Source of the DNA: Chitinophagales bacterium
GTDB lineage: Bacteria > Bacteroidota > Bacteroidia > Chitinophagales > UBA2359
Direction of reading: 5' to 3'
Assembly: GCA_020636475.1 (NCBI GenBank)
Contig: JACJXU010000010.1
Span: 1-64,000, forward strand
Length of the DNA: 64,000 bases
The position numbers were made by a program, and so were the translations under genes. The stretch's first letter is position 1; every line of letters starts with the position of its first letter. The notes under the pieces were generated by a model. That model did no database searches. It was not told the origin of the DNA and saw only the letters and a list, made by a program, of their open reading frames with translations. This document shows, piece after piece, positions 763 to 48,487 of this stretch.

Positions 763-861
763 AGTTTATAACACGGTGTCATAAAACATGGCGGTTGAAA
801 GGTCGGTGCATTGTTCGGGCGTTCTACTCCGCCACGTTTCATACACCAGGCTCGTTATGCC
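763..861 (+). other. attC-like recombination site 1
   Basis: The left part TATAACACGGTGT and the right part ACACCAGGCTCGTTATG enclose a further pair CATGGCGG / CCGCCACG, giving a folded site with AAC (770-772) and GTT (854-856) cores. It closes the cassette with the reverse-strand trio and opens the metal-efflux cassette, whose first bases TTATGCCC match the complement of the box at 9804-9811. Confidence 0.7.
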
Positions 862-1066
862 CAATGCCAAGAGACACCCTACCAACTTTGACAGTCTGAC
901 TGTAAATGACAGAAAAGCCAACGCTTCGTAAAATTAAAAGAGGTGCAAGCCAACACACAAAGCCTAGGCTTTTACACCACATTTAATTTTACCCAATGCG
1001 CCCAAGCCCACCCACCGCCCAAATTTAAAACGATATTTTTTCAACAGATTTCTTATCTTTGCCCCA
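862..1066. other. Non-coding 5' flank of the metal-efflux cassette
   Basis: I see no gene here. The stretch holds phrases such as AAGCCAACACACAAAG that recur beside other large cassettes (9715-9760, 40960-40975, 56665-56680). It may be a fossil junction between the cassette backbone and a large inserted operon. Confidence 0.35.
1054..1061 (+). promoter_or_regulatory. Candidate -7 box of the metal operon
   Basis: TATCTTTG fits the Bacteroidota -7 consensus TAnnTTTG. It lies only five bases before the ATG at 1067, so a transcript from it would be almost leaderless unless translation starts at the ATG at 1088. No clear -33 TTG is seen at the usual distance. Confidence 0.3.
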
Positions 1067-1399
1067 ATGAAACTTTTTGCATTCTTTATGGCTATCTACA
1101 TTTTGGTACTCAGTGCAGTACCTTGTAGCGATGTGCATAATGATTGCAATGATAATAACACAAAAACAGAACTTACCCAAAACCACGACCACCAGCAAGA
1201 CCAAGACGACAATTGCACCCCTTTTTGCACCTGTGCTTGTTGTAGTGCTTCGGTTATTGCAGTAGATTTTGCACCTTTTAAGTTAAAAAACCCTACGGTT
1301 TTTCATATCTCTGAGAAAGTAAGTCTTCGTAACTTTACTTTCATATCCAATTTCTTTGGCTCTATTTGGCAACCCCCAAAAATATCGTTTAATTGTTAG
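1067..1399 (+). CDS. Small exported Cys/His-rich protein, DUF6660-like
   Basis: The 110-residue product has an N-terminal hydrophobic signal (LFAFFMAIYILVLSAVP) followed by a mature part rich in Cys, His and Asp, including the cluster CTPFCTCACC near residues 50-60. This layout matches short periplasmic proteins that stand before CzcA-type operons in Bacteroidota (DUF6660). A role in binding or sensing periplasmic metal is inferred from those residues and from the RND pump, fusion protein and P-type ATPase downstream. The family assignment is from memory. Confidence 0.65.
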   Translation: MKLFAFFMAIYILVLSAVPCSDVHNDCNDNNTKTELTQNHDHQQDQDDNCTPFCTCACCSASVIAVDFAPFKLKNPTVFHISEKVSLRNFTFISNFFGSIWQPPKISFNC

Positions 1400-1553
1400 T
1401 GATTAACGATTAAGACATTCCATTAATCTTCACATTTTTTTGCTCATTTGCATTTAGCAAATGGTATCGTTAATCATTATTGTTTACTCATTATGGTATA
1501 ATGGCATTTGGGTCATTAATCATTCACAATTAATCATTAATAATTAAATAAAA
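1400..1553. repeat. TTAATCATT-rich spacer before czcA
   Basis: The 154-base gap carries several near copies of TTAATCATT or GATTAACGATTAA within about 110 bases. They could be a regulatory repeat array or simple A/T-rich drift. No gene is seen. It directly precedes the GTG start of the pump gene. Confidence 0.35.
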
Positions 1554-4500
1554 GTGTTAGATAAAATAATAAAATTCAGTATAAAAAACAAAATTGTCAT
1601 TGGTATAATGACTTTTTTACTCATTCTTTGGGGTGTTTGGAGTGCTACAAAACTACCCATAGATGCCGTACCCGATATTACCAATAATCAGGTACAAATA
1701 TTTACCACTTGTCCCACTTTAGCAGGGCAAGAAGTAGAGCAGTTGGTTACTTTCCCTATTGAGCAGAGTATAGCCAACATTCCCAACATTGAAGAAGTGC
1801 GTAGTATTTCTCGTTTTGGCTTATCGGTCATTACCGTAGTATTTAAGGACGAAGTAGATATATACTTTGCAAGACAACTCATAAACGAAAAAATAAAAGA
1901 AGCCGAAGAAAAAATCCCTAAAGGAATAGGTACACCAGAGCTTGCACCAGTAAGTACAGGACTTGGCGAAGTGTATCAATACATTATACACCCCAAAAAA
2001 GGCAGTGAGCATAAATACAATGCCAAAGATTTGCGTACTATGCAAGATTGGATCGTAGCAAGACAACTCAATGGCACACCCGGCATTGCCGAGGTCAATA
2101 GTTTTGGTGGCGAACTTAAACAATACGAAGTATCAGTAAATCCCAATCGCCTTAAAGCAATGGGTGTAAGTATTCCAGATATTTTTAACGCCTTAGAAAA
2201 AAACAATCAAAACACAGGCGGTGCATACATAGACAAAAAGCCAAATGCCTATTTTATTCGAGGCATTGGTTTGGTTACTTCAATAGAAGATGTACAAAAC
2301 ATTGCTGTTAAAAATACAGGTGCAGTACCCATATTTATTAAAGATATTGCCGAAGTTCGTTTTGGAAACGCTGTACGCTATGGAGCATTAACCTTTAATG
2401 GCGAAGTAGATGCAGTAGGTGGCGTAGTAATGATGCTAAAAGGCGAAAACAGTAATGAAGTTGTAAATAGAATAAAAGAGAAATTACCTACTATTCAAAA
2501 ATCACTACCTGACGATATTGTAATAGAACCTTATTTAGATAGAACAGATTTAGTAAAAAGAGCCATAAGCACAGTAGAAAAAAATTTAATTGAAGGTGCT
2601 TTAATCGTCATATTTGTTTTAGTCCTTTTCTTAGGCAATTTCAGAGCAGGGCTTATTGTTGCTTCAGCCATTCCTTTGTCTATGCTTTTTGCATTGGGCT
2701 TAATGAATGTATTTGGTGTAAGTGCTAACCTAATGAGTTTGGGTGCTATTGATTTTGGTTTAATAGTAGATGGAGCAGTTATTATTGTAGAAGCCACACT
2801 ACACCATTTAGGTTTGAGAAAATCAATAAACAAACTAACTCAGACTGAAATGGACGAAGAAGTATTTGTATCAGCTTCCAAAATTCGTAGCAGTGCAGCC
2901 TTTGGCGAAATCATTATTTTAATAGTTTATATACCCATATTGTCTTTAATAGGCATTGAAGGTAAGATGTTTCGCCCTATGGCTCAAACTGTTGGCTTTG
3001 CCATTTTGGGAGCATTAATATTATCTCTTACTTATATTCCTATGATGTGTGCCTTATTCTTACCAAAATTAATAAGCCATAAAAAGAACTTTAGTGATAA
3101 AATGATGGATTTCTTTCAAAGAATTTACCAACCATTATTACAAAAAGCCATACAAATAAAATATTGGTTAGTAGGTTGTACAGTTGCATTATTCGTAGTA
3201 TCATTAATTGTGTTCAGCCGAATGGGGGGTGAATTTATTCCTACACTTGCCGAAGGCGATTTTGCTTTTCATTGCATATTACCACAAGGTAGTTCGTTGA
3301 GCCAAAGTATAGAAACTTCAATGCAGGCTTCACGAATTATAAAACAGTTTGATGAAGTAAAAATGGTAGTGGGCAAAACAGGTAGTGCCGAAGTACCTAC
3401 CGACCCTATGCCACCAGAAGCAACCGATATGATGATAATTCTAAAACCACAAAACGAATGGAAAAATGATAAATCGTATAATGAGTTGGCAGATGAAATT
3501 ATGGAAAAATTAGAAGCCATACCAGGAATATTTTTTGAAAAAAATCAACCCATTCAAATGCGTTTTAATGAACTAATGACAGGCATTCGCCAAGATGTAG
3601 CCGTAAAAATATTTGGAGAAAATATGGACACCCTATCAAGCTATGCCAATAAGGTAAACAATGTTATTCAATCGGTACAAGGAGCTACAGCACCACAAGT
3701 AGAAAGAGTAAGTGGTTTACCACAGATCAATATTGAATACGACAGATTGCGATTAGCCAACTACGGCTTAACAGTAGAAGATATAAACGATATTGTTAGT
3801 ACGGCCTTTGCAGGTAAAAGCACAGGTGTTGTTTTTGAAAACGAAAGGAAATTTGATTTAGTAGTACGCTTAGATAGTACCTACAGAAGCAGTATTGAAG
3901 ATGTAAATAATCTGATGATACCAACCAATACAGGCAATCAAATACCACTTTCACAAGTAGCCAATATCAATTTCAAAGTAGGGCCAGCACAAATAAGCCG
4001 AGAAGCAGGTAAGCGTAGAATTGTAGTAGGCTTTAATGTAAAAGACAGAGATGTACAAAGTGTTGTTACTGAAATACAACAAAAATTAAGCACACAAATA
4101 CAACTACCTTCAGGTTATTATTTTACTTATGGGGGCACTTTTGAAAACCTACAAAAAGCCAGTAAACGATTAATGATAGCCGTTCCTATTTCACTATTAT
4201 TAATTTTTATGTTGCTCTATTTTACTTTCCGTAGTTTCAAACAAGCCAGTTTAATTTTCACAGCTATACCAATGAGTGCCATAGGTGGTGTATTTGCCTT
4301 ATTACTTCGTGGTATGCCGTTTAGCATAAGTGCAGGTATTGGTTTTATAGCTTTATTTGGTGTAGCAGTGTTAAATGGAATAGTATTAGTAGGCACTTTT
4401 AATCAATTAGAAAAAGAAGGATGGACAGATATAATAAAGAGAGTGATAGAAGGCACAAAAATTAGGTTGCGACCCGTTTTGATGACAGCTACAGTAGCCA

Positions 4501-5918
4501 GTTTAGGTTTCCTTCCAATGGCATTAAGTAGTAGTGCAGGTGCAGAAGTACAAAAGCCGTTAGCCACAGTAGTAATTGGTGGACTTATAACGGCTACTTT
4601 TCTTACATTATTTGTTTTACCATTGTTATATATCATATTCAACACCAAAATTTCACTAAAGAGAAAACCAAAAATGAATAATATAACAACAGCTACTACA
4701 GTATTATTATTGATGTTTGCATTAAATACAAATGCACAAACAGTTAAGCAACTTACAATAGACGAAGCAATCAATTTAGCCATACAAAATAATCAATCTG
4801 TAAAAGCAAGTGGTATAGATATTCAAGCCACTGAGAGTTTGAAGAAAACAGCCAATGAATTACCTAAATTAGATTTTAATACACAGCTTGGGCAATACAA
4901 TAGTATTAAGTTTGACAATGCTTTTCAGCTTTCGCAAACCATTCCTTTCCCTACCTTATTTGGTGCAAAAAAAGAACTGATAAATGCTGAAGTAAAAGCA
5001 AAACAAATACAACAGCAACTGTCTATTTACGAAATCAAAAACCAGGTTCGTACTTTGTATTATCAAATAGAATATCTGCAATACAACAAACTAAAACTGC
5101 AAGGCTTAGATAGTTTATACAATGAGTTTATACGAGTTGCTAATTTGCGATACAAAACAGGTGATACCAAGAAAATTGAAATTAGCACAGCAGAAACCAA
5201 AAAAGGCGAAATCAATTTATTGGCAGAACAAAACCAAGTGTATTTGCATAATGCGTATAAAAGTTTACAAACCATATTAGGTATAAAAGATAGTATTTTA
5301 ATTCCCTCAAATAATACATATACACCTTTACAAGTAAATAGTTTAATAGATACCAATGCCATTGTAAACCACCCAATGCTACAAGCTATATATCAAAATA
5401 TGCAAATAGCAGAGCAAACCAAAAAGGTTGAAAAAGCACAGGGTTTACCAGATTTCAAAATTGGATATTCCAATCAATCTTTAATCGGTTTTCAAACGAT
5501 AAATAACGTAGATAAATACTTTGGTGCAGGTAATAGATTTAATGTAGTAAATATTGGAATTGCAATACCACTAACTTTTGGAGCTACCAAAGCCCGAATT
5601 AAGAGTTTGGAATATCAAAAACAAAGTTTACAAACACAAGCAGAGTATCAAAGTAAATTGCTCAATACACAACTTCAAAATGCCTTAGCACAATATCAGC
5701 AAGATGTACAGCAATACAATTATTACAAAACCCAAGCATTACCCAATGCAGATGATATTGTAAAAGCAGCACAATTGGGCTATCGTACAGGCGATATAAG
5801 TTATGTAGAGTATTTGTATGCTTTACAAACAGCTACCGATATTCAATTAAAATATTTGCAATCTATTCAGCAAATCAATCAAACAGTAGTAAACATAAAT
5901 TCAATAATCAATAAATAA
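1554..5918 (+). CDS. czcA: CzcA/CusA heavy-metal RND pump fused to TolC-like outer-membrane factor
   Basis: This 1454-residue protein exports heavy-metal cations from cytoplasm or periplasm using proton flow. Residues 1-1040 form an HME-RND inner-membrane pump. The proton-relay residues are visible in the fourth membrane segment as D400, D406 and E413 (DFGLIVDGAVIIVEA). At about residue 1041 a new Met, a hydrophobic signal-like stretch (VLLLMFALNTNAQ) and a TolC-like domain (LTIDEAINLAIQNN onward) begin. A pump-channel fusion of this length is common in Bacteroidota and is not an assembly fault. The start is GTG. The membrane-fusion partner follows 8 bases later. A divalent Co/Zn/Cd or Cu/Ag substrate cannot be decided from the sequence. 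Confidence 0.92.
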   Translation: MLDKIIKFSIKNKIVIGIMTFLLILWGVWSATKLPIDAVPDITNNQVQIFTTCPTLAGQEVEQLVTFPIEQSIANIPNIEEVRSISRFGLSVITVVFKDEVDIYFARQLINEKIKEAEEKIPKGIGTPELAPVSTGLGEVYQYIIHPKKGSEHKYNAKDLRTMQDWIVARQLNGTPGIAEVNSFGGELKQYEVSVNPNRLKAMGVSIPDIFNALEKNNQNTGGAYIDKKPNAYFIRGIGLVTSIEDVQNIAVKNTGAVPIFIKDIAEVRFGNAVRYGALTFNGEVDAVGGVVMMLKGENSNEVVNRIKEKLPTIQKSLPDDIVIEPYLDRTDLVKRAISTVEKNLIEGALIVIFVLVLFLGNFRAGLIVASAIPLSMLFALGLMNVFGVSANLMSLGAIDFGLIVDGAVIIVEATLHHLGLRKSINKLTQTEMDEEVFVSASKIRSSAAFGEIIILIVYIPILSLIGIEGKMFRPMAQTVGFAILGALILSLTYIPMMCALFLPKLISHKKNFSDKMMDFFQRIYQPLLQKAIQIKYWLVGCTVALFVVSLIVFSRMGGEFIPTLAEGDFAFHCILPQGSSLSQSIETSMQASRIIKQFDEVKMVVGKTGSAEVPTDPMPPEATDMMIILKPQNEWKNDKSYNELADEIMEKLEAIPGIFFEKNQPIQMRFNELMTGIRQDVAVKIFGENMDTLSSYANKVNNVIQSVQGATAPQVERVSGLPQINIEYDRLRLANYGLTVEDINDIVSTAFAGKSTGVVFENERKFDLVVRLDSTYRSSIEDVNNLMIPTNTGNQIPLSQVANINFKVGPAQISREAGKRRIVVGFNVKDRDVQSVVTEIQQKLSTQIQLPSGYYFTYGGTFENLQKASKRLMIAVPISLLLIFMLLYFTFRSFKQASLIFTAIPMSAIGGVFALLLRGMPFSISAGIGFIALFGVAVLNGIVLVGTFNQLEKEGWTDIIKRVIEGTKIRLRPVLMTATVASLGFLPMALSSSAGAEVQKPLATVVIGGLITATFLTLFVLPLLYIIFNTKISLKRKPKMNNITTATTVLLLMFALNTNAQTVKQLTIDEAINLAIQNNQSVKASGIDIQATESLKKTANELPKLDFNTQLGQYNSIKFDNAFQLSQTIPFPTLFGAKKELINAEVKAKQIQQQLSIYEIKNQVRTLYYQIEYLQYNKLKLQGLDSLYNEFIRVANLRYKTGDTKKIEISTAETKKGEINLLAEQNQVYLHNAYKSLQTILGIKDSILIPSNNTYTPLQVNSLIDTNAIVNHPMLQAIYQNMQIAEQTKKVEKAQGLPDFKIGYSNQSLIGFQTINNVDKYFGAGNRFNVVNIGIAIPLTFGATKARIKSLEYQKQSLQTQAEYQSKLLNTQLQNALAQYQQDVQQYNYYKTQALPNADDIVKAAQLGYRTGDISYVEYLYALQTATDIQLKYLQSIQQINQTVVNINSIINK

Positions 5919-5926
5919 TTCAAAAT

Positions 5927-7216
5927 ATGTCATTCAATATAAATATAAAAATAAGTGCTGTAATCATACTGTTTATGATACTCACAGCTTGCCACAACCA
6001 CAAAGAAGGCGATGGACATAACCACGGCACAACTGAAACAAAAACCGAAGCCAAAGCAGAAGAACACCACGAAGAAGTACCAGCTACAATAGCTTCTTTA
6101 ACAGATGAGCAAATAAAAACCGTAGGCATTACTTATGGCATTGTTGAAATGAAAGAACTAACAGCTACCATAAAAGCCAATGGTAACTTAAAAGTACCTA
6201 ACAATAATAAAGGCAATGTAACTTCATTGTACGGTGGTGTAGTCAAATCCTTAAATGTACAAATAGGTTCTTTTGTTCGTAAAGGTCAAGTAATAGCGAC
6301 TATTGCTAACCCTCAGTTTATACAATTGCAAGAAGAATATTTAACCATTGCCAGTAAAATTACTTTTGCAGAACAAGAATTAGCAAGACAAAAAGAACTC
6401 AACGAAGGCAATGCAGGAGCAAAGAAAAACTTACAAAGTGCCGATGCAGAACTCAAAACTCTAAGAACTCGTAGAGCTTCTTTACAACAACAAATTCAGT
6501 TAATGGGTATTAATCCTAATAATGTTTCTAATACTAATTTACAATCTGCTTTAGTGGTTACAAGTCCTATTGGCGGCACTGTAAGCAATGTATTTGCTAA
6601 AATAGGAAGCTATGTAGATGTTTCTTCGCCAGTTGCCGAAATAGTAGATAATGGATCATTGCATTTAGATTTGAATATATTTGAAAAAGATTTACCAATG
6701 CTAAGAGTTGGGCAAACCATTCATTTTACTTTAACCAACAATCCTGCTACTGAATACGATGCAGTTGTATATAGCATAGGTACAGCCTTTGAAAGCGACA
6801 GCAAAACCATACCAGTACATTGCAATGTAAAAGGGAATAAAACAGGATTGATAGATGGAATGAACATTACGGCTATAGTTAGCTTAAATAATGTAACCAC
6901 ACCAGCAGTGCCTACAGATGCTATTGTTGAAGCCGATGGTAAATTCTATATTTTTATAGTTACCAATAAAGCACCCGAAGAGCACCACAAAGAAGGCGAA
7001 GAAGGACACGACCATAGCGAAGCAGAAAAAGAAAAAGAAGCAGACCAAAAAAAACATACCAATTTTGAAAAAATAGAAGTGGTAAAAGGAGTATCTAATA
7101 TGGGCTATACTTCTGTTACATTCGTTAATGAAATACCGAAAGATGCTAAAATAGTAACCAAAGGTGCATTCTTTATCAATGCCAAATTATCTAACACAGG
7201 TGGTCACGAACATTAA
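5927..7216 (+). CDS. czcB: CzcB/CusB-type periplasmic membrane-fusion lipoprotein
   Basis: The 429-residue protein bridges the RND pump and the outer-membrane channel. It has a lipoprotein signal with the lipid-carrying Cys at residue 22 (ILTAC), a His-rich metal-binding stretch just after it, a barrel-sandwich domain with a coiled-coil hairpin (about residues 90-220), and a second His/Glu-rich loop (EEHHKEGEEGHDHSEAEKE) near residues 345-370. Such loops fit zinc, cobalt or cadmium chemistry. It lies 8 bases after the pump gene in one operon. Confidence 0.9.
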   Translation: MSFNINIKISAVIILFMILTACHNHKEGDGHNHGTTETKTEAKAEEHHEEVPATIASLTDEQIKTVGITYGIVEMKELTATIKANGNLKVPNNNKGNVTSLYGGVVKSLNVQIGSFVRKGQVIATIANPQFIQLQEEYLTIASKITFAEQELARQKELNEGNAGAKKNLQSADAELKTLRTRRASLQQQIQLMGINPNNVSNTNLQSALVVTSPIGGTVSNVFAKIGSYVDVSSPVAEIVDNGSLHLDLNIFEKDLPMLRVGQTIHFTLTNNPATEYDAVVYSIGTAFESDSKTIPVHCNVKGNKTGLIDGMNITAIVSLNNVTTPAVPTDAIVEADGKFYIFIVTNKAPEEHHKEGEEGHDHSEAEKEKEADQKKHTNFEKIEVVKGVSNMGYTSVTFVNEIPKDAKIVTKGAFFINAKLSNTGGHEH

Positions 7217-7241
7217 TTTTAACACTAAAAAAGTTTAGACA

Positions 7242-7607
7242 ATGAAATTGTATTTTAATATCCCAGAATCACTTTACCCTTTCTATAACTTAGAATTGGA
7301 AAAGGCAACAGAATTATTGAAAGAAAATAAGTTGCAAGAATGTTGGCGACATTATGAAAGAGCTCATATACTTGGGCAACGCTATCCATTGCAACACTCT
7401 TATGTCCATTGGCAGATGCTAAAGTTTGGAATAAAAATTAAAAGTACCAAAGAAGTATTTGGACAAATTACAAGATTAGTTTTTGGTGGAGTAAAATCTT
7501 TTGTAGGCACAGTTCCAATAGGCAATACAGGCGGTGCAAATGTACCACCATTAAAAACAATGGAAATACCAGACGATTTACAAGATATTATAAATAAAAA
7601 CTCATAA
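7242..7607 (+). CDS. DUF3703 family protein
   Basis: The 121-residue protein matches the small DUF3703 family that often accompanies heavy-metal efflux genes. It contains the phrase ECWRHYERAHILGQRYPLQH, with several His residues, and a later VHWQMLKFG. There is no signal peptide, so it is likely cytoplasmic. Its biochemical role is not known. The location between the fusion protein and the P-type ATPase supports a part in metal handling. Confidence 0.75.
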   Translation: MKLYFNIPESLYPFYNLELEKATELLKENKLQECWRHYERAHILGQRYPLQHSYVHWQMLKFGIKIKSTKEVFGQITRLVFGGVKSFVGTVPIGNTGGANVPPLKTMEIPDDLQDIINKNS

Positions 7608-7609
7608 TT

Positions 7610-9658
7610 ATGCAACACATTCATATATACGATGCACAAGGCAAACAACTTTGTTGCACACAAGAGGAAAAAATTAATCATATTGCTAATAAGCAATTAA
7701 AAAAAGAACATAAAGAAGTTGGTTGTTGTGCCACAGACGATCCCAAACACAGCGTACATTCAGACAATGATGGACACAACCATTCAAGTGGTAGTGATAG
7801 CACTTTCAAAATGTTTTTACCAGCTATTATAAGTTTAGTTTTATTACTTATAGCCATTGCTTTTGATAATTGGTTTCCTCAAACTTGGTTCACAGGTTGG
7901 GTTCGTATTATTTGGTATGTAGTAGCGTATGCACCAGTTGGCTTACCGGTATTGAAAGAAGCAATTCAAAACATAGGCAAAGGAGAAATATTTTCAGAAT
8001 TTTTATTAATGAGCATTGCTACTATTGGAGCATTTGCCATAGGCGAATACCCAGAAGCAGTTGCTGTGATGTTGTTCTATGCAGTAGGCGAAGTATTTCA
8101 AACCTTAGCAGTAAAAAGAGCCAAAGCCAATATCAAAACTTTGCTTGACCAAAGACCTGATGAAGTAACCATTTTAGAAAACAATCAACCAACAATAGTA
8201 AAAGCTGAAGCCGTACAAATAGGTAATATTATTCAACTAAAAGCAGGAGAAAAATTAGGTTTGGATGGAGAGCTTTTAAGTGATACTGCTTCATTCAACA
8301 CTTCGGCTCTAACAGGCGAAAGCAAACCCGATACTAAAGCAAAAGGCGAAACGGTATTAGCAGGAATGATAAACCTAAACACAGTAGCACAAGTAAAAGT
8401 TACTACTGCTTACACCGATAGTAAACTATCTAAAATTTTAGAATTAGTGCAAAATGCCACAGCACAAAAAGCACCAACCGAATTATTTATTAGAAAATTT
8501 GCAAAAATATATACGCCAATAGTTGTACTTCTTGCTGTGCTAATTACAACACTTCCTTACTTCTTTGTAGAAAATTATGTATTCAGTCAATGGTTGTATA
8601 GAGCTTTGGTTTTTTTGGTTATTTCTTGCCCTTGTGCATTAGTAATTAGTATTCCTTTAGGTTATTTTGGTGGCATTGGTGCAGCTTCTAAAAACGGAAT
8701 TTTGTTTAAAGGCAGTAACTTTTTAGACATTATTGCAAACATTAAAAATGTAGTAATGGACAAAACAGGGACAATGACAGAAGGTGTTTTCAAGGTTCAA
8801 GAAGTAATATTAAAACCAGAATTTAATAAAGATGAAATACTGCAAATGGTAAATGCTTTAGAAAGCCAAAGTACACACCCAGTTGCTACTGCTATTCATA
8901 ACTATGTAGGCAATGTAGATAGCACTATCAAATTAGAAAATGTAGAAGAAATATCAGGACACGGATTAAAAGCAAATGTAAACGAGAAACAATTATTAGT
9001 AGGCAATTTCAAGCTAATGGATAAATTCAATATTGCTTATGATATTGATCCAACAACCATAGTTTACACATTAATTGCCATTGCTTACGATGAAAAATTT
9101 ATAGGCTATCTTACCATTGCTGATAGTATCAAAGAAGATGCACAGCTTACCATAGATAAACTCAAAGCATTGAATGTAAAAACAACAATGCTTAGTGGCG
9201 ACAAATCTACAGTTGTAAAATTTGTAGCTGATAAATTGGGTATTATAAATTCCTTTGGTGATTTATTGCCAGAAGATAAAGTCAATAAAGTCAAAGAAAT
9301 TAAGGCCAAAAACGAAACAGTTTGTTTTGTAGGAGATGGTGTAAACGATGCCCCTGTAGTAGCATTAAGTGATGTAGGTATAGCAATGGGTGGTTTAGGT
9401 AGCGATGCAACCATAGAAACAGCCGATGTAGTCATACAAGACGATATGCCAAGTAAAATACCAATGGCAATAAACATAGGCAAACAAACTAAAAAAATTG
9501 TATGGCAAAATATCATTTTAGCATTTACGGTAAAAGCAGTTGTTCTAATACTTGGAGCAGGTGGTTTAGCTACGATGTGGGAAGCAGTATTTGCAGATGT
9601 AGGTGTTGCATTATTAGCAATCTTAAATGCAGTGAGAATACAAAGAATGAAATTTTAA
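7610..9658 (+). CDS. zntA: Heavy-metal P-type ATPase (Zn/Cd/Co type)
   Basis: The 682-residue ATPase moves soft or transition metal ions across the inner membrane using ATP. The N-terminus is short with CC pairs and a His-rich segment (DGHNHSSGSD) in place of a normal HMA domain. The transport motif is CPC at 340-342, the phosphorylated Asp is in DKTGT at 384, an STHPVATAI HP motif follows, and GDGVND is at 575-580. Membrane helices surround these as in the P1B class. The start is 2 bases after the DUF3703 stop, so it is the last gene of the operon. The gene symbol reflects class only; CadA would be as good. Confidence 0.88.
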   Translation: MQHIHIYDAQGKQLCCTQEEKINHIANKQLKKEHKEVGCCATDDPKHSVHSDNDGHNHSSGSDSTFKMFLPAIISLVLLLIAIAFDNWFPQTWFTGWVRIIWYVVAYAPVGLPVLKEAIQNIGKGEIFSEFLLMSIATIGAFAIGEYPEAVAVMLFYAVGEVFQTLAVKRAKANIKTLLDQRPDEVTILENNQPTIVKAEAVQIGNIIQLKAGEKLGLDGELLSDTASFNTSALTGESKPDTKAKGETVLAGMINLNTVAQVKVTTAYTDSKLSKILELVQNATAQKAPTELFIRKFAKIYTPIVVLLAVLITTLPYFFVENYVFSQWLYRALVFLVISCPCALVISIPLGYFGGIGAASKNGILFKGSNFLDIIANIKNVVMDKTGTMTEGVFKVQEVILKPEFNKDEILQMVNALESQSTHPVATAIHNYVGNVDSTIKLENVEEISGHGLKANVNEKQLLVGNFKLMDKFNIAYDIDPTTIVYTLIAIAYDEKFIGYLTIADSIKEDAQLTIDKLKALNVKTTMLSGDKSTVVKFVADKLGIINSFGDLLPEDKVNKVKEIKAKNETVCFVGDGVNDAPVVALSDVGIAMGGLGSDATIETADVVIQDDMPSKIPMAINIGKQTKKIVWQNIILAFTVKAVVLILGAGGLATMWEAVFADVGVALLAILNAVRIQRMKF

Positions 9659-9801
9659 TCCCCCCAAGCCAACACATTTACAAGCACATTTGCATTTTTT
9701 ACCACCGCCCCAAGCCAACACAAAAACTGCAAAAGAGCTTGTAAGCCAACGCACAAAGACACTACAAAAAACTAACGAAATGAACAGACGAGAAAAGGCA
9801 C
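9659..9801. other. Non-coding 3' flank of the metal-efflux cassette
   Basis: This stretch has no convincing gene. It contains AGAGCTTGTAAGCCAACG, which resembles AGAGCTTGCAAAGCC at 20174 and 40960 in the tails of the other two multi-kilobase cassettes. The shared flank suggests a common route by which large operons entered cassettes. Confidence 0.45.
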
Positions 9802-9940
9802 TAGGGCATAACAAGGGTTTGAACGCAATGGGGGCAGATGTACTAAATTCAACATTCGTACTTCTATTTGGCATTTGTGCTAAACTCAACATTTGTGGAT
9901 ATAATCCCCCACTGCGTCAAGCCCCAAACCGATGTTCGGA
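9802..9940 (+). other. attC-like recombination site 2
   Basis: The box GGGCATAAC (9804-9812) is the complement of the cassette start GTTATGCCC at 854-862, 8.95 kb upstream. The arms GGTTTGAACGCAATGGGGG and CCCCCACTGCGTCAAGCCCC pair. The right core reads GATGTT and not GTT, which belongs to the short AT-core cassette that follows. Confidence 0.75.
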
Positions 9941-10061
9941 AATCCCTACGGGCTTCCCGAACATCGCACCGGAGGCTTTCCGCCTGCACGAAGCCCTTCG
10001 GGACTTCGTACATCTGAAGGTTTTGCGCAAGCGCAAAAGCCTGCGCAAAGCCTCCGGTGCG
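9932..10061 (+). mobile_element. Geneless AT-core mini-cassette, type 2
   Basis: The unit starts ATGTTCGG and its body ends CCGAACATC, so the ends pair, but the crossover would be G^AT and not G^TT. The internal site has arms GCACCGGAGGCTTT (9966-9979) and AAAGCCTCCGGTGC (10047-10060), a perfect 14-bp pair. It has no gene. It is similar in plan to the unit at 14267. Confidence 0.6.
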
Positions 10062-10536
10062 TTGCACGCAACACCGCCAAAAATCCCGCTCAAAATTACT
10101 ATCCAAATTTTTGAATCTTGAAGAAACTGAATCCAGACCAAAAAACTTTGAAAACAAGGTCTGAATTCATTTTCTATAAAACGGACTGAATAAAATCTCG
10201 ACGCTAAATCTGAATGAATTTCTGACAGTGTCGCATTCAACGATGACAAAATAACGTTCCTAACTTTGTGAAAAAACAAAATCTCGACAAAAAATTGCGC
10301 CGACAAAAAAATGTGCCGAAAAATTAACGCTGACGAAATTCGTTGCGCTGAATTTGACAAACATTAACTCTGACTTTGACAAAAATTAAGTTGAATTTAA
10401 AAAATTGACGAAAAATAACGCTGACAAAATCTGCGGACAAAATTTTAAAAATTTTTGGAAATTTTAGCAATTATCGGTTTGACAATGGGAAGTTTAACTG
10501 AAATTTGACTAAAACTCTAAAATGGTGCTTCGTGCA
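10062..10536 (+). other. Geneless cassette A (about 475 bp)
   Basis: Ends are TTGCACG at the start and CGTGCAA at 10531-10537. No credible reading frame is present. The sequence is rich in TTGACAAA-like phrases and carries the shared hairpin motif at 10109-10189. Its attC-like site is nearly identical to that of cassette B. Confidence 0.7.
10109..10189 (+). ncRNA. Shared hairpin motif, copy 1
   Basis: The copy starts TTTGAATCTTGAAGAAAC. TGAATCCAGACC (10128-10139) pairs with GGTCTGAATTCA (10158-10169) with one mismatch and an 18-base loop, followed by TTTTCTAT and GGACTGA. It lies about 50 bases inside the cassette. Two further copies keep the stem, one with a compensatory change. Whether it acts as RNA or as single-stranded DNA is unknown. 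Confidence 0.5.
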
Positions 10537-10664
10537 ACATCGGTTTTGCAATATGGCGCGGAAAGTTTTTAATAGAACTTGTCGGATTTTTTTGTAACTT
10601 TGGTAAAAATAGAAAGCGGGGAACTTCTTTGGCGCCACATCGCAAAGCCGGAACTCGTTGTGCG
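10530..10664 (+). other. attC-like recombination site 3
   Basis: Cores are AAC 10536-10538 and GTT 10657-10659. Arms CGGTTTTGCAATATGGCGC and GCGCCACATCGCAAAGCCG pair apart from three transitions. Two of these put A on the left opposite C on the right; the third is T opposite G. The loop contains a TAACTTTG box. Confidence 0.75.
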
Positions 10665-11168: not shown

Positions 11169-11303
11169 CATCGCACAACATCGGTTTTGCAATATGGCGC
11201 GGAAAGTTTTTGGTTGAACTTGTCGGATTTTTTGTAACTTTGGTAAAAATAGAAAACGGGGAACTTCTTTGGCGCCACATCGCAAAGCCGGAACTCGTTG
11301 GTC
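11169..11303 (+). other. attC-like recombination site 4
   Basis: Cores are AAC 11177-11179 and GTT 11297-11299. It is nearly identical to site 3 (same arms and the same TAACTTTGG in the loop), so cassettes A and B share a site but differ in body. Confidence 0.78.
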
Positions 11304-11465: not shown

Positions 11466-11502
11466 TTATGGGCAAGTGTAACTGACGACACAGAACAAAA
11501 TA

Positions 11503-12443: not shown

Positions 12444-12475
12444 AACCCTGTGACGACCAAACAAACAGTGAAACA

Positions 12476-36054: not shown

Positions 36055-36060
36055 GAAAGA

Positions 36061-38792: not shown

Positions 38793-38803
38793 AATAAAAA
38801 AGA

Positions 38804-40888
38804 ATGTCTGTAGAATCTAAAAATCAATTATTCCGTTTAGCAGCAGTTCTTTATGCTGACAACACGTATGAGGTTGCACCAAAAACCATCATCAGAAAAG
38901 TCATTGAATCTGCCCTTTTAATCAATGGTAACAATGCAATCAATATTCATCAACTTATTGATTTAATTCACGATTCCTACAATCTGCATTTAATTGAAGA
39001 AGAAGTAAAAAGCATCGTTACCAGTGAAAAGGAGGATGGTTTTTTAGTAAATGAAAAAAATGGTGATACAATAGTTTGCTTACACGAAAAACGTAAGCAA
39101 GTGATTGAATCGAAAATCACCAATAAAACAATTGACTATTTTATTAACGAATTTGAAAAAGAGAGGGAAACGCTTGTTACAGGTAGCAACACCAAGGAAA
39201 TAATTTACCGCTTCCTTTACGAGTTACTAAGTACAAATATTGAAAGTTTTAAAAAATTGCTTGACAGCAAAAAGAAAATTGAAGACCTTATAAACGTTGA
39301 ATCCCATACCTATACAGCAATAGAGAGAGAAATAATAAATGAGTTCTTGACTTGGGATAACAACGAAAAGAACAAAGCAATTTTTGACATTGCCAGCTAT
39401 GCTTTGGAATATTGTATGATTTCAAATAATAGCGGAGCAACTCATATTCAATTAAACAATCTAAAAAACAAAACATTTTACCTTGATACGAATGTAATTT
39501 TCAGAGCCTTAGGAATAAATGGCCTGAACAGACAAAACCGAACCAATACATTTTTAAGAAAATTCCTTGAAGCAAACACTCAACTTGTTATTTCAAAATT
39601 CAGTGAAACTGAATTTAAAGACACAATAGCCTTTTATCTTGACAAACTCAAAAGAACACCACTCAACAGAAAAATTAATCCTGAAATCTTTCAAGAAAAG
39701 TATTTCAAAAGTCTAAGTGATGTTTACGATTTCTACTACAAATGGCGAGCAGGAAGAGCCAATGACAGTTTAGAATTATTCGAGGGTTACATTATGAGCC
39801 TTTACGAAAAATTCAAAGTTGATTTTAAAGTAACCACTGACTACAAAATACCATTTGACGAGAAAGACGAAAAGACTGAAAAAACCATCAATGAATTATC
39901 TGCAAGCATATGTTCTTATAAAAACACCGATGGTGCAAGACACGGTGTTAATGGAGATAACATTGATGCTTTAAACATCCTGCTTGTTGAAACTAAGCGT
40001 GATGGCAAAAACTCCAATATTTTTGAAACCAAACAATTTATTGTTTCTACCGACCAGTCATTAAGACGTTGGGACTATTATCGCAATACAGTTACTCCAA
40101 TCGTAATTCTGCCAAGTCAATGGCTAAGTATTTTGTTGCGTTACATTAATAGGTCAAATGACGACTTTAAGAGTTTTGTTAGCTTTCTAAACTTACCAAG
40201 CAGCGAATCTCAAATTGACAGCGAAAAAATCCATATCATTTTGGCGGGTATCAGTGAAATGACTGAAAACTTTGACCAACAAAGGTTTATTGTTCAAGCA
40301 CTAGTACAAAAGAAATTTGACGGCATTTTAGAAAAAGGTATAAAAGACGATGAAATACTTGAACGAACGAAAACCTTTGCTAAAACTGAACTTGAAAAGA
40401 AAGTTGAAGAAATTGGAAGTAAGCACGATAATCTAAAAACTGAACTCGACTCACATAAACAAACAACAAGCAATAAAATTGGAGAACTTGAACAAAAGAC
40501 AAGTGAACAAACAAGAGAGTTATCTAAGAAAGAGCAAGAGAATAAGGCATTAAAAGAAGCGTTGCAAGAAAAACATATTGCAGAGAAAATTGCCGACTGG
40601 AAAAGACCTGCATATTGGCTATTGCCATTGATTGGTTTGATTATATTATTCTACTTCTTCCAATTATGCTGTTCCGATTGGCAGTATAATTACGTTCAAC
40701 AACTGGTAAACTTCATCGACAACAATCCAAGTGAAACCAAGCGAGACTTAATGAAAGGAATAAATGGAGCATTGGCATTGGCAATTGCATCTTTGATTTA
40801 CTTCTGTTGGTGCAGACTTATTTCAAAAAGTAAAAAGGAAGAAAAAATACATAGTATAATCGATAAAATTCCGAATGAATACAAATAG
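38804..40888 (+). CDS. PIN-like nuclease domain protein with C-terminal membrane anchor
   Basis: The 694-residue protein has a helical N-terminus, a PIN-like core starting FYLDTNVIFRALG with D228, acidic residues later (KFSETEF; STDQSLRRWD), a long coiled coil (about 530-600, HKQTTSNKIGELEQKTSEQ), and two membrane helices (YWLLPLIGLIILFYFF; ALALAIASLIYFCW). It follows hsdS by 11 bases in the same cassette, so it may add an abortive RNA-cleaving arm to the type I system. That role is inference. Confidence 0.7.
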   Translation: MSVESKNQLFRLAAVLYADNTYEVAPKTIIRKVIESALLINGNNAINIHQLIDLIHDSYNLHLIEEEVKSIVTSEKEDGFLVNEKNGDTIVCLHEKRKQVIESKITNKTIDYFINEFEKERETLVTGSNTKEIIYRFLYELLSTNIESFKKLLDSKKKIEDLINVESHTYTAIEREIINEFLTWDNNEKNKAIFDIASYALEYCMISNNSGATHIQLNNLKNKTFYLDTNVIFRALGINGLNRQNRTNTFLRKFLEANTQLVISKFSETEFKDTIAFYLDKLKRTPLNRKINPEIFQEKYFKSLSDVYDFYYKWRAGRANDSLELFEGYIMSLYEKFKVDFKVTTDYKIPFDEKDEKTEKTINELSASICSYKNTDGARHGVNGDNIDALNILLVETKRDGKNSNIFETKQFIVSTDQSLRRWDYYRNTVTPIVILPSQWLSILLRYINRSNDDFKSFVSFLNLPSSESQIDSEKIHIILAGISEMTENFDQQRFIVQALVQKKFDGILEKGIKDDEILERTKTFAKTELEKKVEEIGSKHDNLKTELDSHKQTTSNKIGELEQKTSEQTRELSKKEQENKALKEALQEKHIAEKIADWKRPAYWLLPLIGLIILFYFFQLCCSDWQYNYVQQLVNFIDNNPSETKRDLMKGINGALALAIASLIYFCWCRLISKSKKEEKIHSIIDKIPNEYK

Positions 40889-40994
40889 CCCACGCATTTT
40901 GCAAGCACATTGCCAAAGCCCCACAAGCCCAAGCACAGACCAAAGCTTTGTCAAAGAGCTTGCAAAGCCAACCCAAGAAAAAAAGAAATTTTAA
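40875..40994 (+). CDS. Possible 39-residue tail ORF
   Basis: The ATG lies inside the end of the PIN-domain gene in another frame. The product ends ELAKPTQEKKKF, like the 35-residue frame after the PLD gene (ELAKPTQKKNCF). It could be real or a chance open frame in a shared flank. Confidence 0.3.
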   Translation: MNTNSPRILQAHCQSPTSPSTDQSFVKELAKPTQEKKKF

Positions 40995-41086
40995 AAAATG
41001 CCCCACCGCACGACAAAAGAAAATAAAAATGACAGCAACATTTAGACTGACAAACCACGGCAGACAAGGAAGCACTGGTGGTAACA
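40995..41086. other. Non-coding 3' flank of the type I cassette
   Basis: Only A-rich text is present, with a GACAAACCACGGCAGACAAGG stretch shortly before the site (split across 41048-41068). No gene is seen. Confidence 0.35.
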
Positions 41087-41213
41087 TGCGTTTGGCGTCA
41101 TGCGGGGTGACGTGCTTAAATTCAAGTTCAGTTTTCCAATTGGGCTTTAGTGCTAGGTTGACAGTTTTGAGCCCTGAAATCCCGCACGAACGCCAAGCGC
41201 AAAAACGTTGGTC
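41087..41213 (+). other. attC-like recombination site 19
   Basis: GGTGGTAAC (41087-41095) is the complement of GTTACCACC at 33333, 7.76 kb upstream. Arms GCGTTTGGCGTCATGCGGG and CCCGCACGAACGCCAAGCGC pair. The right core is GTT 41207-41209. Confidence 0.85.
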
Positions 41214-41375
41214 AAAATAGTCGCTCCGCTCCCATTTTGACCAACGCGGGGCGGATTGCATCCGCTGTCGGACTGCGCCGTCGCTGCGCGACTACTTCGT
41301 CCAACAACTGATTTGCTAAATTACTTCGCTTGAAAACTTCGTTTCCGCTTCGTAACTTCGCAAATCCGCCCCGCG
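41208..41375 (+). mobile_element. 168-bp geneless cassette, copy 11
   Basis: Exact 168 bp; AACTGATTTGC spacer with CTTGAAAACTTCG. Confidence 0.87.
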
Positions 41376-41400
41376 TTACCAGCAATTTTAAGACGACACA

Positions 41401-42115: not shown

Positions 42116-42249
42116 GCTGGTAACACGGGTTTGGCAAAAGTGGCGGTTCAGTGCTCCGCAGACACATTTGTGGTTAATCAAAGTTTGGTTCTCCGCATCA
42201 ACATTTGTGGTGAAAATCGCCACCTTCGCCAAGCCCGAAAACGTTGGTC
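42116..42249 (+). other. attC-like recombination site 20
   Basis: GCTGGTAAC (42116-42124) is the complement of GTTACCAGC at 41375. Arms CGGGTTTGGCAAAAGTGGCG and CGCCACCTTCGCCAAGCCCG pair with two A/C positions and one T/G. Confidence 0.83.
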
Positions 42250-42411
42250 AAAATAGTCGCTCCGCTCCCATTTTGACCAACGCGGGGCGGATTGCATCCG
42301 CTGTCGGACTGCGCCGTCGCTGCGCGACTACTTCGTCCAACAACTGATTTGCTAAATTACTTCGCTTGAAAACTTCGTTGCCGCTTCGTAACTTCGCAAA
42401 TCCGCCCCGCG
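42244..42411 (+). mobile_element. 168-bp geneless cassette, copy 12
   Basis: Exact 168 bp; AACTGATTTGC spacer class with CTTGAAAACTTCG. Confidence 0.87.
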
Positions 42412-42483
42412 TTATAGGCTATGTTAGGACAATTACTTAAACGACAAAACCGAGACAAAACAAAAAATAAATTTAATTGCGAT

Positions 42484-43031: not shown

Positions 43032-43167
43032 GCCTACAACATCGTATTGGCAATAGTGGGGCTGACAGTTGTAAACTCAACATTTGTAATTCTATTGGGC
43101 ATTTGTGCAAATGTTGGGCTGACGTTTTCCAAATGCCCCACCATCGCCAAGCTGCAAAACGTTGGTC
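43032..43167 (+). other. attC-like recombination site 21
   Basis: GCCTACAAC (43032-43040) matches the complement of the cassette start GTTATAGGC at 42411 except for one A/C position. Arms TTGGCAATAGTGGGG and CCCCACCATCGCCAA pair with two more A/C positions. Confidence 0.8.
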
Positions 43168-43329
43168 AAAATAGTCGCTCCGCTCCCATTTTGACCAACG
43201 CGGGGCGGATTGCATCCGCTGTCGGACTGCGCCGTCGCTGCGCGACTACTTCGTCCAACAACTGATTTGCTAAATTACTTCGCTTGAAAACTTCGTTGCC
43301 GCTTCGTAACTTCGCAAAGCCGCCCCGCG
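43162..43329 (+). mobile_element. 168-bp geneless cassette, copy 13 (12th intact copy)
   Basis: Exact 168 bp; AACTGATTTGC class with a base change in the right arm (AAGCCGCC for AATCCGCC). Confidence 0.86.
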
Positions 43330-43379
43330 TTGGCGGTCATTGTAACGAACGACACTACAAAAAAACAAGCGGATAACAA

Positions 43380-43769
43380 ATGACAAGACTTGACCCGATA
43401 ATTGCCGTAAAAAAAGTTGAAGAAAGTGCCAAATGGTACTGTAAAATCTTTGGATTTAATAGAGCTCACGGTGGTGACCATTTTGCTGTTTTGACAACCA
43501 AGGACAACGAAATTGTACTTTGTCTGCACGCTTGGGAAACAGACAATCACCCATCAATGACCAACCCGAATATAACGCCAGGAAACGGACTGTTGCTTTA
43601 TTTTAGGACAGCTGATTGGAAAGAAATAAAACAAAATCTTGACAAAATCGGGTGGACAATTGAAAAAGACATTCAACAAAATGTAAACTCTCTTAAACAA
43701 GAGTTTTCGTTCAGAGACCCTGACGGATATTTTATAACGGCAACTGAATTTCATACTTATGAGGGCTAA
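43380..43769 (+). CDS. VOC-superfamily (glyoxalase-like) protein
   Basis: The 129-residue protein has the VOC beta-alpha-beta-beta-beta pattern: PIIAVKKVEESAKWYCKIFGF, HGGDHFAVLTTKDNEIVLCLH, and FSFRDPDGYFITATE near the end. His and Glu residues could hold a metal. Family members include glyoxalases and antibiotic-binding proteins, and the substrate is unknown. The next gene in the cassette is a second VOC protein. Confidence 0.82.
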   Translation: MTRLDPIIAVKKVEESAKWYCKIFGFNRAHGGDHFAVLTTKDNEIVLCLHAWETDNHPSMTNPNITPGNGLLLYFRTADWKEIKQNLDKIGWTIEKDIQQNVNSLKQEFSFRDPDGYFITATEFHTYEG

Positions 43770-43782
43770 ATTTTTTTTACAA

Positions 43783-44199
43783 ATGGACAACATATTCAAA
43801 ACTTACAAACCTGACAATTTTCATACAGTAACACCGTATCTTTTTGTTGACAATCCACAACTTTTGATTGACTTTTTAAAGAACGCCTTTCTTGCAAAAG
43901 AAATCAACCGTTCCATCAATCCGACAAATGGAGATATTGCTAACTGTATTTTGCAAATTGGCGACACTTGCTTTATGATTAGTCAAGCCCGTGAACAGTT
44001 TGAAGGAATGAAAACGGCACTTTATCTTTTTGTTGACGATGTTGATGCTATCCATAAGAGAGCGGTTGACAACGGTGCAAAAATTGAGTTTGAACCCGGA
44101 AATATGCCATACGAAGACAGACAATCAGGAATAATTGACCCTTGTGGAAACTATTGGTGGATTTCAAAACGACAAGTAGAAAAAGGTTACCACGAATGA
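43783..44199 (+). CDS. VOC-superfamily, PhnB-like protein
   Basis: The 138-residue protein resembles PhnB/YdhR-like VOC proteins: TVTPYLFVDNPQLLIDFLKNAF, ILQIGDTCFMISQA, and YEDRQSGIIDPCGNYWWISKR near the end. I start at the ATG at 43783; an upstream ATG at 43759 overlaps the preceding gene. The two VOC genes may form a pair with related ligands. Confidence 0.82.
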   Translation: MDNIFKTYKPDNFHTVTPYLFVDNPQLLIDFLKNAFLAKEINRSINPTNGDIANCILQIGDTCFMISQAREQFEGMKTALYLFVDDVDAIHKRAVDNGAKIEFEPGNMPYEDRQSGIIDPCGNYWWISKRQVEKGYHE

Positions 44200-44228
44200 T
44201 AAAAATTGTGAAAGAAAGAAAACAACGA

Positions 44229-44362
44229 ACCGCCAACATCGTATTGGCAATAGGCGGGCTGAACAGCTTCGATTGGGCAGATGTGCAAAATTCATCTTCA
44301 GTTCTTCAATTGAGCTTTAGTGCAAATAATCCCGCCCATCGCAAATCCGCCCCGCGTTAGCG
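44229..44362 (+). other. Hybrid attC-like site 22
   Basis: ACCGCCAAC (44229-44237) matches the complement of GTTGGCGGT at 43329. The left arm is of the ATCGTATTGGCAATAG family, but the right end (GCAAATCCGCCCCGCGTT, 44341-44358) is the right end of the 168-bp cassette. The two arms no longer fully pair, so this is a recombined junction. Confidence 0.7.
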
Positions 44363-47599: not shown

Positions 47600-47659
47600 T
47601 GAAATTACTTCGCTTGCAAACTTCGTTTTCGCTTCGTAACTTCGCCAATCCGCCCCGCG
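47594..47659 (+). mobile_element. Truncated 168-bp cassette (66 bp)
   Basis: Only GTTGCGCTG and then the right 55 bases of the unit remain (AAATTACTTCGCTTGC to CGCGTT). The left hairpin and left arm are missing. Confidence 0.75.
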
Positions 47660-47686
47660 TTATAGGGCATTTTAAAAGACGACACA

Positions 47687-48361
47687 GTGCAAACAAGAAA
47701 ACATACAGCCTGGAAGAAAAACCGAAAATTTGGTGACGTAATGGGTGGACGAAAAAGACCCAAACTTGCGGACAATATTTTCAATAGACAACACAACTTG
47801 ACAGCCCCTAACGAAGGACAAGAAATCCCAATTTTCATTGTTGACAATCCCTCACGTGACTTTTATTTCCCTGTGACAGTTGACGAAGTAAAAGAAATAC
47901 TTGGACGATTACCAAAAGACCATACAGACCATTTAACTCACATTTGGTTTCAAAAAATTAAAAAGACTGACTATTTGGACGGAAAAACATTTCAAGGTTC
48001 TTTTGTTTGTGGAAGTGGTGTGTACTTAATCATTCTCAATCCATTTCCGACTGACAACAAAATGAGATTTGGAAAGAAAAAGCCATTAACGAAAATCTTA
48101 AACTATTATAAAGACTTTACGACAGACTTAAAAGAAGACGAAGACGGGTGGTATTTAAAGTGGACTGAAGAAAAGATTAAAAAATATTACTTGGAAAATC
48201 TACTGTTACACGAAATCGGACACTCAATAGACAGTTTTTATAAAAGATATTGGAGCAAAGCGACTGAGCAAAAAAGAGAAAATTGGGCTGACAATTATGT
48301 CGCAGTTTGGGCAGACCAAATAAGAGAAAACTATGAACCGAATGAGAAAAACGCCCTATAA
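47687..48361 (+). CDS. Putative zinc metalloprotease (HEIGH)
   Basis: The 224-residue protein has a zinc-protease motif HEIGHSIDSFY with H175-E176-H179, preceded by LENLLL. The N-terminal part has strands IPIFIVDNPSRDFYFPVTV. The third zinc ligand could be the Glu in RENWAD about 25 residues on. The substrate is unknown. The start is GTG at 47687; an ATG at 47741 is possible. Its TAA stop is inside the attC box. Confidence 0.7.
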   Translation: MQTRKHTAWKKNRKFGDVMGGRKRPKLADNIFNRQHNLTAPNEGQEIPIFIVDNPSRDFYFPVTVDEVKEILGRLPKDHTDHLTHIWFQKIKKTDYLDGKTFQGSFVCGSGVYLIILNPFPTDNKMRFGKKKPLTKILNYYKDFTTDLKEDEDGWYLKWTEEKIKKYYLENLLLHEIGHSIDSFYKRYWSKATEQKRENWADNYVAVWADQIRENYEPNEKNAL

Positions 48362-48487
48362 CAGCACCTACCCAAAAGTGGCGGTTCAGTGGTTAAATCA
48401 AGCTTTGTGCTCATATCAAAGTTTCTGCTTGGTTGACAGTGAATCGCTTCGAAATCGCCACCTTCGGGTAGCTGCAAACCGTTGGTC
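48353..48487 (+). other. attC-like recombination site 25
   Basis: GCCCTATAAC (48353-48362) is the complement of GTTATAGGGC at 47659. Arms CTACCCAAAAGTGGCGG and CGCCACCTTCGGGTAG pair, the same family as site 13. Confidence 0.83.

Follow-up and report, generated by a model that had tools for sequence, protein, structure and literature searches.

A cassette array in a Chitinophagales genome likely built by an unrecognised type of integron

The DNA analysed here, called the window throughout, comprises the 64,000 nt at positions 1 to 64,000 of contig JACJXU010000010.1 from a Chitinophagales bacterium (assembly GCA_020636475.1), and its subject is a cassette array at 770–48,483, a run of gene units of about 48 kb in which each unit ends in a foldable hairpin site. 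Each unit starts with GTT and 6–10 further bases and ends with the complement of those bases and AAC, behind which a palindrome of about 124 nt follows and closes in the next GTT. A covariance model of the sites, R1, was constructed from an alignment of 20 window sites and matched 24 sites in the window at E < 0.001 (R1 E-values being rough), 23 in the array and one outside; 20 of these matches are the training sites themselves, and those at 9810, 14143, 26219 and 44235 are the only independent finds. The features of the window are listed below, with protein families from Pfam, defence homologues from PADLOC, "6/6 ends" for units whose six bases beyond GTT and AAC are all complementary, and "mini-cassette" for a recurrent gene-less unit.

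770–856 (+): first attC-like site, 87 nt, whose own cassette begins left of the window; hand-located, no R1 match
854–9812 (+): 8.95-kb cassette with RND efflux (ACR_tran and OEP), HlyD adaptor and P-type ATPase (Pfam); ends GTTATGCCC/GGGCATAAC
9810–9933 (+): attC-like site, the following core being GAT; R1 85 bits, outside the training set
10536–10659 (+): attC-like site; R1 94.7 bits, training member
11177–11299 (+): attC-like site; R1 93.8 bits, training member
11297–11467 (+): mini-cassette copy 1, a 39-nt hairpin body plus its own 135-nt site, with a perfect 12-nt stem beside the cores
11465–12316 (+): cassette, Rce1-like protease (Pfam); 6/6 ends
12314–12437 (+): attC-like site; R1 116.1 bits, training member
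12435–14145 (+): cassette, WYL regulator and a weakly HEAT-like protein (Pfam); 6/6 ends
14143–14268 (+): attC-like site; R1 89.5 bits, outside the training set
14995–15165 (+): mini-cassette copy 2
15163–20345 (+): 5.2-kb cassette, Mokosh-like defence pair MkoA/MkoB (PADLOC 2e-133, 4e-30); 6/6 ends
20343–20466 (+): attC-like site; R1 107.2 bits, training member
20464–21072 (+): cassette, AHSA1-domain protein (Pfam); 6/6 ends
22043–22711 (+): cassette, DUF4145 protein, PD-T7-4 defence homologue (PADLOC 1e-81); 6/6 ends
22829–22999 (+): mini-cassette copy 3
23319–23489 (+): mini-cassette copy 4
24381–24551 (+): mini-cassette copy 5
25227–25397 (+): mini-cassette copy 6
25395–26221 (+): cassette, DUF2971 protein (PDC-S31-like; Pfam, PADLOC); site core AAT, strict end rule failed
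26341–26511 (+): mini-cassette copy 7
28361–29196 (+): cassette, NADAR-domain protein (Pfam); 10-nt end complement
29315–29485 (+): mini-cassette copy 8
29483–33046 (+): 3.6-kb cassette, sigma-70-type factor, short-chain dehydrogenase and more small open reading frames (ORFs) (Pfam); 6/6 ends
33044–33167 (+): attC-like site with the top R1 score, 121.6 bits, training member
33165–33335 (+): mini-cassette copy 9
33333–41085 (+): 7.75-kb cassette, type I restriction-modification (R, M, S and another ORF; Pfam, PADLOC); 6/6 ends
41207–41377 (+): mini-cassette copy 10
42243–42413 (+): mini-cassette copy 11
43161–43331 (+): mini-cassette copy 12
43329–44237 (+): cassette, two glyoxalase-fold proteins (Pfam); 6/6 ends
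44235–44358 (+): hybrid site by sequence, left half of a regular site and right end of a mini-cassette site; R1 68.4 bits, outside the training set
47659–48362 (+): last array cassette; 10-nt end complement
48360–48483 (+): last array site, followed by a truncated mini-cassette; R1 111.2 bits, training member
56732–56837 (+): lone attC-like site beyond the array; R1 73.8 bits, training member

At 29 of the 35 consecutive site pairs in the window (R1 sites plus the hand-located ones, namely the mini-cassette sites and the first site), complementarity covered at least 5 of the 6 bases next to GTT/AAC, with perfect 6/6 ends at 26 pairs, while 2000 shuffles of the ends gave on average 5.5 and at most 13 matching pairs; leaving out the 12 mini-cassette pairs, the rule held at 17/23. 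A first-pass annotation of this DNA had described consecutive GTT…AAC units with complementary ends, and its units, cores and coordinates are borne out by these counts, as is its example of a 7.8-kb unit (33333–41085). Six pairs failed the rule: two have a GAT core (9931 and 14266), one has a site AAC that reads AAT in the sequence (25395/26221), one reached 4/6 bases (44356/44945), and in two a mini-cassette remnant merges units (26509/26938, 28361/29196 and 47659/48362) that match separately over 10 nt. The foldable site proposed for every unit was likewise found, although its size is more uniform than the 55–140 nt given at first, as array sites measure 87–135 nt and regular ones mostly 122–127 nt. 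The longest unit spans 8.95 kb (854–9812), and others reach 7.75 kb (33333–41085), 5.2 kb and 3.6 kb, lengths that are long for integron cassettes. The GTTATAAAC start is absent from window positions 1–770, so the first unit begins left of the window. Neither a tRNA in a tRNA search of the window nor an Rfam family at the gathering threshold was detected.

In the 20-site alignment the sites share a 17-pair stem, with compensatory changes at 16 of the 17 pairs. When the start of a cassette was joined to its own site, the bottom strand folded into an R stem of about 10–12 pairs with a one-sided bulge, past which a short stem led through an unpaired base to a long stem. Of the eight cassettes folded, seven had a bulge of 4 nt and one had a bulge of 5 nt. 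The symmetric, two-sided unpaired central spacer that characterises canonical attC was not found in the eight reconstructed sites. The 89 kb surrounding four class 1 integron loci contained no R1 match. Outside the array, R1 produced weak, non-significant matches in the window at 52138 (20.5 bits) and 58256 (18.7 bits).

Sites of the same type were present on plasmids and viral contigs. Used as blastn queries, a 345-nt stretch and a single site each returned eight plasmid records, all from Bacteroidota genera, and the 345-nt stretch had no blastn match among phages. R1 detected 5 sites in the Empedobacter and 7 in the Riemerella plasmid stretch, and further sites in plasmids of Myroides, Emticicia, Haliscomenobacter, Chryseobacterium, Flagellimonas and Persicobacter and in many IMG/VR contigs. 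Counted over R1 matches plus hand-located sites, with some weak viral-contig matches omitted, 16/24 plasmid pairs (shuffled maximum 9) and 62/77 viral-contig pairs (shuffled maximum 15) followed the end rule at 5–6 of 6 bases. That the genome belongs to Bacteroidota, as was said at first, fits these site matches and also the plasmid matches of one window protein, best in Flavobacterium (60%), and of another in Hymenobacter/Spirosoma (47–48%).

On plasmids, including those of Empedobacter and Riemerella, the same site type flanks tet(X2), lnu(H), erm(F), ere(D) and catB. Unbroken complementarity of at least 6 nt was found for 8 of the 12 resistance-gene units tested, which carry tet(X2), lnu(H), catB, MarR/arr (in two records), erm(F), ere(D) and estT. 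The clearest case of sharing is the erm(F) unit, common to Myroides albus and Flagellimonas exactly from GTT to GTT (1293 nt, 97%). Empedobacter and Riemerella share the arr/MarR unit and the catB unit in stretches that end one base past GTT, and each of the two units has at least one copy whose shared stretch begins at or beside GTT. Exchange of whole cassettes with breakpoints at the core was found in this way among plasmids; insertion sequence (IS) copies, backbones and some partial cassettes in the same comparison share segments that break away from the cores. Taken with the covariation and the end rule, the core-to-core sharing upholds the first-pass view of integron-type cassettes bounded at GTT, the start of each being complementary to its own site.

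In two types of phage contig, an array is headed by a recombinase that is not accompanied by IS91, and the fifth viral record with a PF00589 protein encodes a recombinase of about 412 amino acids (aa). The 265-aa recombinase family is large (7658 proteins at E < 1e-20 among 8000 scored), and its best 120 members are almost all 265 aa long and 75–100% identical. Loci were taken from the best 80 of 148 viral-contig relatives, which are related phage contigs, some of them near-identical. Over these 80 loci R1 detected 229 sites, all 229 on the strand opposite to the recombinase, with 226 upstream of it and 3, all in one locus, downstream. In the per-locus counts, where 218 of the 229 sites were entered, a site lay upstream of the recombinase in 60/71 loci with at least 600 nt upstream and in 52/56 with at least 1500 nt, and the density was 215 counted sites per 232 kb upstream vs. 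3 per 294 kb downstream. The first cassette started 42–62 nt from the recombinase start in 42/55 loci, mostly at 52–53 or 61–62 nt and mostly behind a TATATAATA-like stretch. Recombinase, fixed first insertion point and array together give the layout of intI, attI and cassettes. The Flagellimonas plasmid has the same layout: erm(F) is in the first cassette, and 90 nt separate this cassette from the start of a gene that is annotated as xerA; in the Chryseobacterium and Persicobacter plasmids the recombinase is instead oriented towards the array. A close-relative scan with the Flagellimonas enzyme returned one fragment. Among 50 recombinase-bearing contigs, taken from the 60 loci named at first, at least 13 had a terminase that scored above the Pfam cut-off, so at least those contigs look like real phages.

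The position of the recombinase bears on the explanation that host XerC/XerD move the units, as proposed for the pdif modules of Acinetobacter plasmids. Xer proteins are near-universal, and a recombinase gene is missing from some plasmids that carry sites, as that explanation would allow. A pdif module, however, is made of pairs of XerC/XerD dif-like sites, whereas each unit described here closes in a single long palindrome that is asymmetric and has GTT as its core, and in the 52 of 56 loci counted above the array is headed by a dedicated recombinase; we regard movement by host XerC/XerD as very improbable.

The array-side recombinase was then compared with integron integrases. Its residues 9–175 and 208–256 aligned to 11–179 and 260–308 of the integron integrase structure 2a3v, leaving 32 residues where IntI has 80, while IntI1 itself aligned to 2a3v over nearly its whole length. 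Between patch II and box III, where the I2 alpha-helix region lies, 106 of the 108 measured members of the 265-aa family (120 in the set) have 53 residues, the enzymes of locus L043, Flagellimonas and Persicobacter 58 and that of Chryseobacterium 59, compared with 62–64 in IS91-linked recombinases, 61 and 72 in two Xer-like proteins and 100 in IntI1; the 265-aa family is about 47 residues short where IntI1 has its extra (I2) helix region, and at 53–59 residues the array-side recombinases were found to have no I2 region. The integron integrase profile TIGR02249 matched the recombinase in two separate stretches and under its cut-off, and the nearest PDB entries to its predicted structure (pLDDT 84.5, pTM 0.64) were XerA and 2a3v. 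An IntI with the additional alpha helix, named as a check by the first-pass annotation, is not what these results point to, since the recombinases beside this site type have no such insertion and the site has no symmetric spacer.

These comparisons weigh on the reading of the array as part of a canonical integron (IntI, attI and attC; class 1 or sedentary chromosomal), in which a usual IntI with the extra helix would lie outside the window and the sites would be ordinary long attC. Canonical integrons do share with this system the G^TT bounds, the R-box complementarity of each cassette to its own site, the attC-like folding, and an integrase divergent from the array with a fixed first insertion point, the last being seen in the relatives and not in the window. 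Moreover, the accessible text of PMC9892861 describes attC clusters in phages, among them one Bacteroidota phage, Polaribacter phage P12002L, of which one attC site was recombined by IntI1; R1 had weak matches in that phage (36, 25 and 24.5 bits), which may not be the sites tested. The array differs from canonical integrons in a one-sided bulge, in cassettes of up to 8.95 kb, in the failure of R1 to match the four class 1 loci and, as judged from its relatives, in recombinases that have 53–59 residues where IntI1 has 100. The phage clusters of attC sites lacking integron integrases (CALINs) and integrons of PMC9892861 likewise differ, as no XerA-like integrase or attI of such an enzyme is described in the part of that paper seen. 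In the IntegronFinder 2 survey, as far as its accessible text goes, the single complete integron of Bacteroidetes is that of Salinibacter ruber, In0 elements being all that was found earlier (PMC9024848). A canonical integron is on balance an unlikely source of the array.

A different kind of recombinase gene was found physically at the sites. In Myroides plasmids, an IS91 transposase and a tyrosine recombinase lie at sites, and such pairs also occur in Emticicia and Chryseobacterium plasmids; this would suit a reading in which IS91/HUH elements spread these genes and the palindromes are element ends. In p63039 (L027), all four such elements (about 16957–19295, 23016–25354, 26371–28696 and 29807–32132) are joined to a site exactly at AAC, so the sites look like the targets of a site-targeting IS91 group rather than its ends, and on the same ground the IS91-linked recombinase, a distant relative (about 30% identity) of the array recombinase that uses the site as insertion target, was rejected as array head. 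An IS91 homologue was present in only five of the 78 sequences compared, and not in the window, whose array therefore has no HUH transposase of this kind; the end rule is left unexplained by IS91 spread, which we hold to be even more improbable than movement by host XerC/XerD.

We conclude that an unrecognised integron type likely built the array and that its predicted integrase is a short tyrosine recombinase, XerA-like and lacking the helix specific to IntI; we have high confidence in this reading. It is argued for by the cassette ends, the conserved site structure, the whole cassettes common to plasmids, and the recombinase beside a fixed insertion point and array in phages and plasmids; judged from such sequence features, the system is one that works like an integron, but with a different integrase and a different site. 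The XerA-like recombinase would cut the folded single-stranded site at G^TT, the cassettes would circulate as circles, and the enzyme would serve the window array from outside the window; a location of the integrase left of the window is plausible. A broader proposal, which we favour only slightly over its negation, is that of a second integron engine, in which XerA-type recombinases without the I2 helix would recombine folded attC-like DNA, run complete integrons (enzyme, attI and attC array) in Bacteroidota and their phages and have made tet(X), erm(F), lnu(H), ere(D) and catB movable cassettes, with the mini-cassettes parasitising the same cores.

Several observations count against the short XerA-like integrase. 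No integrase was found within the window, where tblastn with five array-side recombinases, IntI1 and an IS91-linked recombinase gave a best E of 0.16 (IntI1, 0.52), and no PF00589 protein was present in the two antimicrobial-resistance (AMR) plasmids with at least 5 and at least 7 sites. Among 53 further records chosen for their sites, which R1 confirmed in 51, 44 had no PF00589 protein and 9 had one (the viral records may be fragments), and the 4 plasmid records among these 9 all carry it in IS91-linked elements; the enzyme must accordingly often act in trans or be lost. Where the recombinase had 600 nt or more of upstream sequence, 11 of the 71 loci had no site in it. Two blaOXA units do not follow the end rule and two blaMYO-1 units reach only 5/6, with the first base mismatched. 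A tree of 26 recombinases leaves the relation to IntI1 unsettled, with long branches meeting. Gene orientation also differs: ORFs are sense to the site in 19/21 ORF-bearing spans of the window and in 8/10 of the two AMR plasmids (spans that include non-cassette stretches), whereas 90 of the 96 ORF-bearing cassettes in recombinase-linked phage arrays are antisense, near-identical loci and some weak sites being excluded, and 30 more phage-array cassettes have no ORF of 50 aa. The window and phage arrays may thus be of different types; the antisense order in the phage arrays (L090–L169) means that cassette genes and recombinase are read in the same direction.

The gene-less mini-cassette, with its 39-nt hairpin body and 135-nt site, occurs in 12 intact copies in the window, which are never consecutive and have a different site ahead of each one; copies 2–12 differ from copy 1 at 0–5 positions over 171 nt, and remnants lie near 27009, 44344, 47607, 48493 and 52176. 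In a Chryseobacterium plasmid array (L078), a different sequence of the same build is present in 4 copies, one of them first after the recombinase. A 19-mer of the mini-cassette site found two loci among genome contigs, about the number expected by chance by our estimate, and neither has an R1 site. The mini-cassette is likely a gene-less passenger that would spread through the same cores as the array cassettes. A role as promoter carrier, considered on inspection by eye, was not adopted. A possible but less probable origin is a hairpin transposon, non-autonomous and directed at the GTT core: the site has a perfect, bulge-free 12-nt stem directly at the cores and no R1 match, and the fourfold second sequence in Chryseobacterium would suit a transposon too, yet the mini-cassette follows the GTT/AAC cassette rule with 12 complementary nt, and it is a unit of this type that takes the first place after the recombinase in L078. 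Two more gene-less hairpin units, at 9931–10063 and 14266–14405 in the window, have GAT/ATC and not GTT/AAC cores (GATGTTCGG.. and GATGTGGCG..). Repeated hairpin-like stretches were also seen at unit borders, at 15308–15416 and 33489–33597, these two being 89% alike, and near 9690 and 40900. Between two sites of the Chryseobacterium array, L078 has an annotated group II intron reverse transcriptase (18540–19856); introns that target attC are known in canonical integrons.

The cargo of the window comprises a metal-efflux-like operon, the Mokosh-like pair, the PD-T7-4 homologue, the PDC-S31-like and NADAR proteins, a complete type I restriction-modification operon, glyoxalases and regulators, together with several ORFs that have no Pfam match. 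The array serves as a store of accessory genes, and homologues of anti-phage defence genes account for several of these. Beyond the array, at 53201–56845, a specificity subunit of type I and an ORF for the R subunit whose end lies at the lone site (56732) form a broken restriction operon, as residues 1–522 of the R-subunit ORF cover positions 1–500 of a 976-position profile, i.e., only its first half; the ORF between them (54460–55086) resembles by eye a transposase associated with repetitive extragenic palindromes (REP).

Related genes have been reported in other settings. The accessible parts of PMC11194056 give tetX-catB11-IS91-XerD clusters of Chryseobacterium; these clusters and the xerD-tet(X3)-ISCR2 arrangement of Acinetobacter plasmids have the same genes and a relative of the recombinase, and in the accessible text they are described as gene neighbourhoods and not as integron cassettes. 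In the Acinetobacter sequences compared here (L082, L083), the xerD beside tet(X3) encodes a protein 49% identical to the array recombinase over 207 aa, and 172 nt after xerD the same GTTATGTGCC start is found as in the tet(X2) cassette; the truncated site after tet(X3) does not complement that start. This arrangement suggests an integron fragment carried off by ISCR2. In R. anatipestifer, according to the portion of PMC13148043 available, aph(3')-IVb integrates into the chromosome independently of homology, and the inserted unit invariably includes a 5′ flank of 27 bp and a 3′ flank of 140 bp; the 140-bp flank folds like attC, and the mechanism is called not fully elucidated. The gene with its approximately 140-nt attC-like 3′ end and the homology-independent entry are shared with the present cassettes; the available portion differs in naming neither an enzyme nor a cassette family, and the two were compared by description. 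No report of a XerA-like integrase with attC arrays was found in the literature search, which left preprints and most subscription papers outside.

In integron integrases, the I2 helix is credited with the gain of single-strand recombination, as stated in the accessible text of PMC7790495, and a widespread integron-like system whose integrase has no I2 region would be a direct test of that view. If the enzyme acts on the folded site, the view needs revision; if it acts on duplex DNA, the strong conservation of pairing needs another reason. A cassette mechanism is offered for the way in which resistance genes enter Riemerella without homology, so far unexplained, and tet(X2) and other resistance genes on plasmids of Flavobacteriia would be cassettes. 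R1 provides a model for arrays that current tools may miss. Because the same arrays are present in phages, a single system may serve the exchange of genes between phage and host.

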